From contig NZ_JONM01000008.1 of assembly GCF_000711875.1 (NCBI RefSeq), forward strand, positions 1 through 64,000: 64,000 nucleotides of DNA, in the 5' to 3' direction. Positions 44,971-48,196 of the stretch are shown in pieces (the stretch's first letter is position 1; each line of letters begins with the position of its first letter). A program made the position numbers and the translations under genes. This stretch comes from Andreprevotia chitinilytica DSM 18519. GTDB lineage: Bacteria; Pseudomonadota; Gammaproteobacteria; Burkholderiales; Chitinibacteraceae. The notes under the pieces are model-generated. The model was not told the DNA's origin, made no database searches, and saw only the letters and a program-made list of their open reading frames with translations.

Positions 44971-45717
44971 CTAATGGCCTTCACATTGGTTGAGTAGCTG
45001 TTTCATGGCGGTGAGATCGAGTAACTCGATCAGCCGGTTCTGCACCTTGATCAGCCCTTGGTCTTGGAAGCGGGACAGCGTGCGGCTAACCGTTTCCAGT
45101 TTCAACCCGAGATAACTGCCGATTTCCTCGCGCGTCATGCGCAGATGGAAACTGCTGCTGGCGTATTGGCGTTGGGCAAACCGATGCGACAGATTGAGCA
45201 GGAAGGCGGCGACGCGCTCATCCGCAGTCATGTTGCCCAACAACAGCATCACGTCCTGATCGCGGACGATTTCGCGACTCATCACTTTGTAGAAGTGACG
45301 TTGCAGCGCCGGGATCTGGCGCGACAGGCTTTCCATTTCGGTGAAGGGCAGTTCGCAGACTTCGCTGTCTTCCAGCGCGATGGCATCGCACATGTAATGG
45401 TCGGCGCTGATGGCATCAAAGCCCATGAGATCACCGCTCATTTGGAAACCGGTGATCTGCTCGCGGCCGTCTTCCGAGACCACGCTGGTCTTGAAGAAGC
45501 CCACCCGGACTGCAAACAGCGCCTTGAACGGCTCGCCAGCCCGGTACAGCGCCTCACCCCGTTTGATCGGCTTGCCTTGGGTCACCAGCTGTTCCACCGC
45601 CTGCATGTCTTCGACCGAGAGCCCCGTTGGCAGGCACAGCTCGCGCAAACTGCAAGTCGAGCATGCATGGCGCAAGTGAGGGAAGCTGATGTCGTGTACG
45701 TGGATTGGAGAAAGCAT
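44971..45717 (-). CDS. fnr: FNR/ANR-type oxygen-sensing transcription regulator
   Basis: A 248-residue Crp/Fnr regulator. The N-terminus has Cys19, Cys22 and Cys28 ('HACSTCSLRELCLP'), and a fourth Cys is in 'YMCDAIALEDSEVCELPF'; these fit the four ligands of a [4Fe-4S] cluster. A cyclic-nucleotide-like barrel follows, then a long dimer helix and a helix-turn-helix, 'MTREEIGSYLGLKLETVSRTLSRF'-type (in two parts), with the FNR recognition E..SR. It would activate or repress genes under low oxygen. Confidence 0.92.
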   Translation of the reverse strand: MLSPIHVHDISFPHLRHACSTCSLRELCLPTGLSVEDMQAVEQLVTQGKPIKRGEALYRAGEPFKALFAVRVGFFKTSVVSEDGREQITGFQMSGDLMGFDAISADHYMCDAIALEDSEVCELPFTEMESLSRQIPALQRHFYKVMSREIVRDQDVMLLLGNMTADERVAAFLLNLSHRFAQRQYASSSFHLRMTREEIGSYLGLKLETVSRTLSRFQDQGLIKVQNRLIELLDLTAMKQLLNQCEGH

Positions 45718-46120
45718 GGGAGGGCCGCGACTCTGTTGCTTGATGGAAACGACACGTCAGCCAAACTGGCGACGTGCGCTGGCAGGTATCAGTAGCCATC
45801 ATACAGCGCTGTTTCGGCGATGAATAATCAAGCGGCGTGTGTTTTGGGGCCAAGCTTCGGCGGCGGATGGTCGTTTTCCCGGATGAAGGGTATTTCGCGT
45901 GCGTAACTGAGACGGAAATCACGCATATACACAGATCATTTATATGCTTTCGTGTTTTGCAAAGAAATGGCCGGTTTTGATTAATTGAAATGCTTGAGGG
46001 TGAGTAAGTCATTTTGCATGTTATTGCGGCGGATGGATTTGCTATCTCAATAATTTAATTCAGGGATATGTGCACGTAAGCGATTGCTGGTGATTGTTGT
46101 TGATGGGTTTCATGTTTAAT
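45718..46120. other. Gene-free, AT-rich interval upstream of fnr
   Basis: About 400 bases between the fnr start and the terminator of the Ser/Thr repeat gene. It is clearly more A+T-rich than its neighbours. I find no credible ORF and no RNA gene. Part of it must hold the fnr promoter. A TTGATTAATTGAA stretch near 45976 resembles half an FNR box but does not complete it. Confidence 0.5.
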
Positions 46121-46150
46121 AAAAAACGCCCGACGAATCGGGCGTTTTTT
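46121..46150 (-). terminator. Rho-independent terminator after the Ser/Thr repeat gene
   Basis: AAAAAACGCCCGA and TCGGGCGTTTTTT form a hairpin, about 40 bases downstream of the minus-strand gene's stop. Confidence 0.92.
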
Positions 46151-46190
46151 ATTGGCTAAATGAAAGTGAGTGTTTTATAGGGCCGTCGCA

Positions 46191-47051
46191 TTATTTCCGG
46201 CCGGATGATTTACCGGTTTGCGCGGCGGTGGAATTGCTGGTCGATTTCGCAGAGGTGCTCGAAGTCGAAGAGGTCGAAGAAGTTGTGGTGCTTGTCGCAG
46301 TGCTTGAGGGCGACTCGGTATGCGTGGTCGAAGTGCTGGTTTTGCCAGTCGTAGACGACGGAGCGGTGCTCGAAGGCGATTCGGTGTGTGTGGTCGTGGT
46401 GCTGGTTTTGCTGGTGAAGTAGGCCGAGGGTGCTGTGCTCGAAGGAGATTCGGTATGCGTAGTCGATGTGCTGGTCTTGCTGGTGCTGGTCGATGGCACC
46501 GTGCTCGAAGGCGACTCGGTATGCGTAGTCGATGTGCTGGTCTTGCTGGTACTGGTCGATGGCACAGTGCTCGACGGCGATTCGGTGTGCGTAGTCGAAG
46601 TACTGGTTTTGCTGGTGCTGGTCGACGGCGCGGTGCTCGAAGGCGACTCGGTATGTGTAGTCGACGTGCTGGTTTTGCTGGTGCTGGTCGACGGCGCAGT
46701 GCTCGAAGGCGACTCGGTATGTGTAGTCGACGTGCTGGTTTTGCTGGTGCTGGTCGACGGTGCAGTGCTCGAAGGCGATTCGGTATGCGTGGTCGAAGTG
46801 CTGGTTTTGCTGGTGCTGGTCGATGGCGCAGTGTTCGAGGGCGATTCGGTGTGCGTAGTCGAAGTGCTGGTTTTGCTGGTGGAATACGACGGCGCAGTGC
46901 TCTTGCTTGTGTTCGATGTAGATGTCGAGGTCGATGTCTTGCTGGTCGACTTCGTCGTCGTGTACGAAGACTCGACGGCATAGGCGGTAGAATAGGCCAT
47001 TGCACTGCAAAGCAGGGTGGCAAGCAAGGTGGTTTGAGTGTGGTTCTTCAT
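46191..47051 (-). CDS. Secreted Ser/Thr-rich mucin-like repeat protein
   Basis: A 286-residue protein from the ATG at 47051 (GGAG ribosome site). The signal peptide is 'MKNHTQTTLLATLLCSAMAY' plus about eight residues to 'AYA'. The mature chain is nearly all Ser, Thr, Pro, Lys and Glu, with nine copies of a 22-residue repeat containing THTESPSSTAP and SKTSTST. It has no predicted fold and ends 'AAQTGKSSGRK'. Dense Ser/Thr suggests O-glycosylation or a stalk or matrix role; no cell-wall anchor is seen. A cyclic-di-GMP riboswitch precedes it. Confidence 0.8.
   Translation of the reverse strand: MKNHTQTTLLATLLCSAMAYSTAYAVESSYTTTKSTSKTSTSTSTSNTSKSTAPSYSTSKTSTSTTHTESPSNTAPSTSTSKTSTSTTHTESPSSTAPSTSTSKTSTSTTHTESPSSTAPSTSTSKTSTSTTHTESPSSTAPSTSTSKTSTSTTHTESPSSTVPSTSTSKTSTSTTHTESPSSTVPSTSTSKTSTSTTHTESPSSTAPSAYFTSKTSTTTTHTESPSSTAPSSTTGKTSTSTTHTESPSSTATSTTTSSTSSTSSTSAKSTSNSTAAQTGKSSGRK
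46300..46893. repeat. Nine-copy 66-bp tandem repeat within the Ser/Thr-rich gene
   Basis: A block such as GA(C/T)TCGGT(A/G)TG(C/T)GT recurs every 66 bases nine times (for example near 46313, 46513, 46645, 46778). Most units differ at silent or conservative sites. Two near the low-coordinate end are altered (one lengthened by a codon). Unit number is likely to vary between strains. Confidence 0.9.
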
Positions 47052-47114
47052 TTCGTTCTCCAATCAAAAAGTCGATGGCAGAACAAAACCCGAAAAGGGA
47101 GGATCGCATTGAAT

Positions 47115-47192
47115 CAGGCGGCCCCGCTGCCATATCCCGATGGGACTTAGGTCGGAAGCTTTGCGTCCCCAGCTTTCACTGGTTTTGCCTCT
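47115..47192 (-). promoter_or_regulatory. Cyclic-di-GMP-I (GEMM-I) riboswitch upstream of the Ser/Thr repeat gene
   Basis: Read on the minus strand, the aptamer runs GGCAAAACC, a GAAA tetraloop-type segment, GGGACGCAAAGC, then CCGACCTAAG, and after a variable loop GGCAGCGGGGCCGCC. These are the conserved blocks of the GEMM-I motif in the right order and spacing, including the G-A-C-G-C-A-A-A-G-C core and the AGCGGGG receptor strand. It ends about 65 bases before the start codon. A weak CCC-TTTTC-GGGTTTT hairpin between the two might be the expression platform. The ligand-on direction cannot be told. Confidence 0.92.
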
Positions 47193-47205
47193 ACTGGAGT
47201 TGAGT

Positions 47206-47245
47206 CCAATTGGGGTTCGAATTGATTCGAATGGTTTCCAATTGG
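47206..47245. promoter_or_regulatory. Paired CCAATTGG palindromes upstream of the riboswitch
   Basis: CCAATTGG occurs at 47206-47213 and 47238-47245, 32 bases apart (about three helical turns). Between them TTCGAA occurs twice (47216-47221, 47226-47231). The block lies just upstream of the riboswitch on the minus-strand transcript, where its promoter should be, and may be an operator. Confidence 0.35.
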
Positions 47246-47380
47246 CTTCAACTTGGTTTGCAGTGTAATTGGGGTTTTCTGAATCGAATGTGATGTTTCC
47301 TACACTCAGGCGCTCGAACGGGATTAACGGCAGCGTGAAAAGGATCGGCGGTAAAGATTGCAGTTTTTGAAATGATTGTT

Positions 47381-47396
47381 TGTGATGGTGATCACA
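47381..47396. promoter_or_regulatory. Perfect CRP-type palindrome
   Basis: TGTGATGGTGATCACA matches the TGTGA-N6-TCACA consensus exactly. It also reads as GTGAT-N4-ATCAC, one base per half-site from an FNR box. It lies 141 bases before the TauE/SafE-type gene and 330 bases from the divergent Ser/Thr repeat gene, so either could be the target. Confidence 0.6.
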
Positions 47397-47536
47397 TTCA
47401 ATTCTTGTCTACAGGATTGCCCCATGGCGCAAACGGCGCAGAAATTGATATCCCCGGCAATGCGCCGACAGCAGGGCGCGTTATCGCGCAGCGATTCCAT
47501 GCCCTGTTGGCATCCACATCACATTGATGCTTCTGC

Positions 47537-48196
47537 ATGTTCGAACTTGATCTAGGCGCCTTGTTTCTGGCCGGCTTGCTGGGTGGCGGGCATTGCCTTG
47601 GCATGTGCGGTGGCGTGGTGACTGCATTCAGCCTGCAGCTGCCACCTGGCCCGCGCTGGCGCTATCACCTCGGCTTCAATCTCGGCCGCTTGCTGGGCTA
47701 CGCGCTGATCGGTGCGATTGTCGGCGGGCTGGGTTCGCTGACCACGTTGCTGTCGCTGCAAGCCGTCAAGACGGTGCTGTTCGCATTGGCGCAAGCCTTG
47801 CTGATCCTGATGGGCTTGTATCTGGCCGGATGGTCTGGCTGGCTGCGCCGGGTCGAGAAACTGGGCGTGCCGGTGTGGCAGCGCATCCAGCCCGTTTTGC
47901 GGCGACTGTTGCCAATTCGCAACTGGCCGCAAAGTGTCGCCGTCGGCATGTTGTGGGGCTGGTTGCCGTGTGGATTGGTCTATACCGCTAGCCTTTCTGC
48001 CTTGGCGAGTGCCTCACCCGTCAAGGGGGCCGCAATCCTTTTTCTTTTTGGAATCGGCACCTTACCGAATTTGTTGCTGATCGGCGCTGCATCTGGCTCG
48101 CTCCTTGCCTGGATGCGGGCGCAGTGGGTGCGAAAAACCAGCGGCGTGTTACTGATTGCAATCGGGGTGTTCCGGCTCTGCCAGATGGCGCTATAA
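47537..48196 (+). CDS. Sulfite exporter TauE/SafE-type membrane protein
   Basis: A 219-residue membrane protein starting 'MFELDLGALFLAGLLGGGHC' and continuing 'LGMCGGVVTAFSLQLPPGP', the signature of the family often encoded near fnr and cbb3 oxidase genes. About six hydrophobic segments are seen, e.g. 'LLGYALIGAIVGGLGSLTTLL' (two parts) and 'LWGWLPCGLVYTASLSAL'. The conserved Cys in GHCLGMCGG and LPCG suggest metal or redox transport; a role in copper delivery to oxidases is an inference. Confidence 0.78.
   Translation: MFELDLGALFLAGLLGGGHCLGMCGGVVTAFSLQLPPGPRWRYHLGFNLGRLLGYALIGAIVGGLGSLTTLLSLQAVKTVLFALAQALLILMGLYLAGWSGWLRRVEKLGVPVWQRIQPVLRRLLPIRNWPQSVAVGMLWGWLPCGLVYTASLSALASASPVKGAAILFLFGIGTLPNLLLIGAASGSLLAWMRAQWVRKTSGVLLIAIGVFRLCQMAL

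Follow-up and report, generated by a model that had tools for sequence, protein, structure and literature searches.

Organization of the locus

The locus lies in the window, a stretch of 64,000 nucleotides of Andreprevotia chitinilytica DSM 18519 (contig NZ_JONM01000008.1). It comprises a GEMM-I (c-di-GMP-I) aptamer and, on the same strand, a gene for a Ser/Thr-repeat protein whose ATG at 47051 is 62 nt from the end of the aptamer (Table 1). The stop codon is at 46193-46191, and an inverted repeat with a T run lies 37 bp past it. The locus is flanked on one side by the gene of an FNR-type regulator (44971-45717, minus strand; 251.9 bits for Fnr with a cut-off of 228) and on the other side by a divergent gene for a DsbD_2-type membrane protein (47537-48196, plus strand).

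Table 1. Features of the riboswitch-gene unit, numbered from the first nucleotide of the window
Feature	Position	Strand	Basis
c-di-GMP-I aptamer with GAAA tetraloop and GGGACGCAAAGC core	47114-47199	minus	Rfam RF01051, full model
Expression platform, 62 nt	47052-47113	minus	Folding, shuffles, terminator scan
Putative Shine-Dalgarno sequence (SD) GGAG, six bases before the ATG	47058-47061	minus	Sequence
Gene for the 286-aa Ser/Thr-rich repeat protein	46191-47051	minus	Translation, repeat units, codon-position test
Tandem array, 66-bp unit (22 aa), 9.2 copies	46296-46902	minus	Tandem Repeats Finder
Perfect inverted repeat, 16-nt arms, 4-nt loop, T run; likely terminator	46118-46153	minus	Inverted-repeat search

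Upstream of the aptamer, two further elements can be appreciated. The direct repeat AGTCCAATTGGGGTT (47203-47217) and AGTGTAATTGGGGTT (47262-47276), alike in 13 of 15 positions, is located just before the aptamer and possibly represents promoter elements; a sigma-70 promoter scan of 46000-47560 found none. The perfect CRP-type palindrome TGTGATGGTGATCACA (TGTGA-N6-TCACA) is located at 47381-47396, in the interval that separates the riboswitch from the membrane-protein gene, 181 bp before the aptamer. The pattern is rare in the window, with 0.04 sites expected. The whole genome, however, contains two such sites compared with one of the reversed pattern—hence no enrichment—and the palindrome is probably a product of chance. 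In addition, the genome has two Crp-family proteins apart from FNR, and the one scanned reaches 100.8 bits for CRP, below the cut-off of 266. CRP-type control was set aside on these two grounds.

The Ser/Thr-repeat protein

The N-terminus of the protein resembles, as judged by eye, a Sec signal peptide (MKNHTQTTLLATLLCSAMAYSTAYA-VE). The composition is 33.6% Thr and 32.5% Ser, together 66%, rising to approximately 70% from residue 29 on, with 6.3% Pro and 5.9% Ala. Ten units of the type SKTSTSTTHTESPSSTAPSTST are readable, each of 22 residues and spaced by 22 residues, once by 23; the first unit differs from the others in 8 to 11 residues. The tail after the repeats is short, and no anchor could be seen by eye. 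The initial annotation had described the product as a signal-peptide protein made almost wholly of Ser/Thr repeats, a description that these features bear out, with the signal peptide being a reading by eye.

With a unit length divisible by three, stop codons are likewise absent from four more frames across six of the repeat copies (residues 59-190). The differences among these copies are mainly synonymous: 14 nucleotide columns vary, of which none, two, and 12 fall on codon positions 1, 2, and 3, respectively. Of the 22 residue columns, the Ser/Thr frame varies in two; the remaining sense frames vary in 13 and 12, and the antisense frames in 13, 4, and 12. Since the Ser/Thr frame shows the least variation and most changes are located at third positions, it is most likely the frame under selection, rather than the other stop-free frames. 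The protein has no match in Pfam or NCBIfam at E 0.001, and a comparison with the PDB by sequence yielded no solved relative.

The protein carries the features expected of a mucin-like protein—long Ser/Thr-rich, Pro-containing repeats behind a signal peptide-like start—and the genome encodes a candidate general O-oligosaccharyltransferase. The latter is a protein of 575 residues, encoded elsewhere in the genome, with scores of 31.9 bits for PglL_A, 64.4 bits for Wzy_C, and 84.1 bits for Wzy_C_2, all above the Pfam cut-off, and with no NCBIfam match. Such domains are described as co-occurring in PglL/PglS O-oligosaccharyltransferases, and a preference of PglL for serines in disordered, alanine-rich regions is described in the same source (PMC12645811). 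Because of this preference and the presence of a candidate enzyme, O-glycosylation of the repeat protein by the PglL-type candidate is plausible and may possibly occur. The fit to the preference is imperfect, as half of the hydroxyl residues are Thr and Ala amounts to the 5.9% given above.

The aptamer and its probable ligand

The aptamer matches RF01051 at 67 bits (E 6e-11), above the gathering score of 35 bits. The alignment is not truncated, spanning positions 1-87 of the 87 of the model, and contains the blocks GGCAAAACC, GAAA, GGGACGCAAAGC, and AGCGGGG in that order. RF01051 is the sole RNA family at or above its gathering score in the entire window, and a search of the genome (5.15 Mb) at E 0.001 found no second GEMM-I. 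When the pairs of the model are imposed on the sequence, three of them are non-standard, and the flank pairing of P1 is short (CAG/CUG, by eye). The initial annotation had placed a GEMM-I riboswitch on the minus strand at 47115-47192, which falls inside the match; the four conserved blocks it listed in order are all present in the alignment, and the covariance-model run it proposed returns a significant score. The observation is, hence, confirmed, and the aptamer is of an ordinary, known kind.

At the position taken to be equivalent to G20 of Vc2, the aptamer has a G. The 116 aptamer rows surveyed, which count three loci twice, feature at this position G in 105 cases, A in four, and C in two, while five do not match the pattern. 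This position is described as a selectivity factor, not as a hard filter (PMC9262584). The genome holds 47 GGDEF matches above the cut-off among the 48 listed, two matches being the halves of one open frame of 416 aa. We infer c-di-GMP as the ligand because a G, not an A, occupies the selectivity position, and the 47 GGDEF matches make this ligand plausible. GEMM-I members with 3',3'-cGAMP as the ligand are reported from Geobacter (PMC8835794), and a GEMM-Ib type at this locus would bind that messenger instead of c-di-GMP; such an assignment is very improbable for an aptamer that carries the same G as 105 of the 116 surveyed rows.

Leader folding and probable mode of control

No rho-independent terminator was detected on the minus strand between the aptamer and the ATG, neither by the scan nor by eye, the scan being a weak negative since it also overlooked the obvious inverted repeat after the gene. 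Across 46000-47560, it returned two sites where 2.1 were expected, and both of them fall within the repeats on the plus strand. In the unforced fold of 170 nt, the leader segment GGGUUUUGUUCUGCC pairs with the 5' core of the aptamer; once the aptamer is forced, it pairs with the ribosome-binding site, and the two helices are mutually exclusive. The unforced fold of 199 nt, however, already contains the SD hairpin.

In comparison with shuffled sequences, the 170-nt leader does not stand out from chance (z −0.01), and 69 of 1000 shuffles equal the 62-nt platform taken by itself. For the pairing of the conserved core with this platform, 152 of 2000 shuffles do as well. Among 2000 shuffled leaders, 71 equal or exceed the pairing of the anti-SD with the SD, and 12 equal or exceed that of the leader with the 35 nt at the start of the aptamer. 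All 24 transcript-end combinations have a mostly paired SD, whether the aptamer is forced or not: its mean unpaired fraction is 0.07-0.19 in the free state and 0.07 with the aptamer forced, and forcing costs 3.3 to 6.2 kcal/mol over the same combinations.

Because no terminator is seen in the leader and GGGUUUUGUUCUGCC has alternative pairings in the modeled folds, control at the level of translation appears likelier than control of transcription. An OFF switch is slightly favored, as GGGUUUUGUUCUGCC pairs with the ribosome-binding site when the aptamer is formed. This is a weak case, since the free and the aptamer-forced models alike have the SD mostly paired. For class I switches, both directions are reported, and the direction is described as not extrapolable from one species to another (PMC6366702). 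A biofilm-linked ON direction thus finds no backing in a folding pattern that is ambiguous, with either direction on record for the class.

The coding repeats contain eight copies of GCAAAACCAGC or a near variant (46401-46885), which resembles GGCAAAACCAGT of the aptamer (47178-47197). Because of this resemblance, the coding region might be a further pairing partner of GGGUUUUGUUCUGCC in the leader.

Distribution in the family and in the wider order

The neighboring genes are conserved in both congeners examined. The DsbD_2-type protein is 80% identical in Andreprevotia lacus DSM 23236 and 82% identical in Andreprevotia sp. IGB-42, and the FNR-type and DsbD_2-type genes are adjacent in both (G001, G002). 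The gap between them measures 202 and 398 bp, compared with 1819 bp in the window, and aligns to the window at the gene ends only. At this locus of the two congeners, no tblastn match to the 286-aa protein was found, and no GEMM-I was found in either genome. In all 12 other regions of the family that were read (L064-L075), the same gap holds an open reading frame of 465-514 residues, which we presume to be HemN-like, and the 286-aa protein has no tblastn match in these regions. The pairing was, hence, not found at this place in either congener, and the unit may have been gained in this genome or lost elsewhere.

Among the Chitinibacteraceae, two of 43 genomes have a GEMM-I detectable at E 0.001 with search filters that miss some weak matches: the genome of the window and one other (G006), in which the aptamer precedes a different gene, for a protein of 799 aa that matches neither Pfam nor NCBIfam. 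In the wider order, GEMM-I occurs in at least 148 of 399 genomes. The 286-aa protein, searched in 61 genomes, matched itself only. A public genome collection, from which the record of the window itself is possibly absent, gave 152 pattern matches and no relative of the protein, whose low complexity makes distant relatives difficult to detect. The DNA of the riboswitch and the gene matched no plasmid record and no phage record.

The genes that follow GEMM-I were surveyed at 116 loci taken from among the matches listed. Of these, 115 were scored, L187 being excluded because its contig stops 7 nt after the aptamer; three are duplicates (L203 of L082, L204 of L085, and L235 of L092), so that 112 distinct scored loci remain, the window included. 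Two rules were applied: the longest open reading frame of at least 60 aa starting within 600 nt, and any open reading frame of at least 60 aa with more than 28% Ser and Thr. In the window, the former picks a shadow frame of 307 aa, and the Ser/Thr gene came in by the latter. None of the other 111 distinct loci has a comparable Ser/Thr gene: the frames picked by length have a Ser and Thr fraction of at most 0.22, and those picked by composition are at most 177 aa long with a fraction of at most 0.45 and are shadow frames as judged by eye.

A single cluster accounts for the next gene at 45 of the 112 distinct scored loci (L002, L004, and 43 more). The two members scanned match DUF1631 (PF07793), a domain of unknown function, which looks like a common target of c-di-GMP riboswitches in the order; in the open-licence literature, DUF1631 was not found together with such a riboswitch. 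The remaining next genes fall into a cluster of 12 protease-like ones, a label assigned here, and smaller groups. In both G184 and G390, three GEMM-I matches lie on one strand over approximately 1.9 kb, possibly tandem riboswitches, and the third of these precedes a gene of the DUF1631-matching cluster (L204, 5038 bp; L203, 2817 bp).

Comparison with known systems

The switch Bc2 precedes cbpA/cap in the Bacillus cereus group and is reported as a transcriptional ON switch (PMC7423583, PMC6366702). It resembles the arrangement proposed for the window, with a class I c-di-GMP riboswitch in the mRNA leader and a repeat-bearing surface protein encoded behind it. CbpA, however, is described as a large protein that binds collagen, has an LPXTG anchor, and contains 17 Cna_B repeats (PMC7423583), whereas the protein of the window is small and matches no family, and no terminator is seen in its leader.

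The switch Vc1 precedes gbpA in Vibrio cholerae. Shared with the window are a class I switch, a protein that is secreted (probably so in the window), a chitin-dwelling bacterium, and a leader with no apparent terminator. In addition, gbpA is subject to CRP control besides the riboswitch, and the window likewise has a CRP-type palindrome upstream of its riboswitch. In contrast, GbpA is reported to bind GlcNAc-containing surfaces and Vc1 to act positively (PMC4744006, PMC4545359), and the palindrome of the window is not enriched in its genome.

The switch Vc2, also of Vibrio cholerae, is referred to as a translational OFF switch by way of a cited title on masking of the ribosome-binding site (via PMC9262584); its mechanism was still called unknown in 2016 (PMC4744006). 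The aptamer-forced fold of the window has the same layout. However, the gene is another one, and the SD of the window is mostly paired in both modeled states.

Serine-rich repeat glycoproteins of the Fap1 type are long and come with dedicated secretion and glycosylation genes; SRRP adhesins carry recognized family domains, with accessory secretion and glycosylation genes alongside. The 286-aa protein features none of the SRRP family domains (Pfam and NCBIfam, E 0.001), and the two genes flanking its own, being FNR-type and DsbD_2-type, are not of the secretion or glycosylation kinds. Ser-rich repeats and plausible glycosylation are common to the Fap1-type proteins and the protein of the window, but the former are Gram-positive (PMC5207161).

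GEMM-I before secreted adhesins is, hence, already known from CbpA and GbpA (PMC7423583, PMC4744006). The statement of the initial annotation that the pairing had not been described holds for the exact pairing only: GEMM-I together with a Ser/Thr-repeat protein was not found in the open-licence literature, and the combination with this gene is new as far as these searches go.

Proposed mechanism and alternative explanations

We consider it fairly probable that the GEMM-I in the 5' leader controls a secreted, probably disordered Ser/Thr-repeat protein and does so via translation. Since the aptamer directly precedes the gene on the same strand, it is natural to infer that c-di-GMP controls this gene. 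The mRNA would probably be a single-gene transcript with the GEMM-I in its 5' leader, and the aptamer is predicted, from the G at the selectivity position, to bind c-di-GMP. In the ligand-free state, GGGUUUUGUUCUGCC would pair with the 5' core of the aptamer; with the aptamer formed, GGGUUUUGUUCUGCC would pair with the ribosome-binding site, and translation would be regulated in this way. The secreted protein may act as a surface coat, a spacer, or part of the matrix, and the PglL-type enzyme possibly O-glycosylates it.

A chance and recent juxtaposition of an intact aptamer with a fast-evolving orphan gene, with regulation weak or absent, is unlikely, even though several observations would suit it. 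The congeners lack both aptamer and gene between the same neighbors (202 and 398 bp compared with 1819 bp), GEMM-I was detected in two of the 43 family genomes and before different genes, no relative of the 286-aa protein was found, and folding gives no clear switch. An aptamer out of use would be expected to decay, however, and this one is located close before the gene and still fits the consensus at 67 bits, three of the model pairs being non-standard.

As for the role of the protein, a coat at the surface, a spacer, or part of the matrix is our best guess, made from its composition. A tentative alternative, with a real share of the probability, is that the protein is neither a matrix nor a surface component but, for example, a disordered spacer of the periplasm or a non-functional repeat expansion. 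No family, homologue, or solved relative of it was found, and the tail after the repeats is short, with no anchor apparent by eye, all of which is consistent with this alternative; the mostly synonymous changes among the repeat copies, the signal peptide-like start, and the likely terminator of its own argue against it. A species-specific bacterial 'mucin', glycosylated by PglL and made when c-di-GMP falls, as under an OFF switch, is quite improbable. The initial annotation had proposed a matrix or surface glycoprotein switched by c-di-GMP: the riboswitch class and the nature of the gene stand, control by c-di-GMP is the natural reading, and the glycoprotein label is a guess for a protein with no family, anchor, or homologue found. 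This guess is backed by the composition, the signal peptide-like N-terminus, and the PglL-type enzyme encoded elsewhere in the genome.

Significance

The locus adds an unusual target to GEMM-I, as a protein that is two-thirds Ser/Thr and built of repeats joins the genes placed under this riboswitch class. The riboswitch-gene unit is seen in one genome, whereas neither of the two congeners shows it. Should the protein prove to be a glycosylated coat, its leader would be a direct handle on when this coat is made. If the reading as an OFF-switched 'mucin' were true, the protein would coat cells or release them from chitin, rather than bind them to it.
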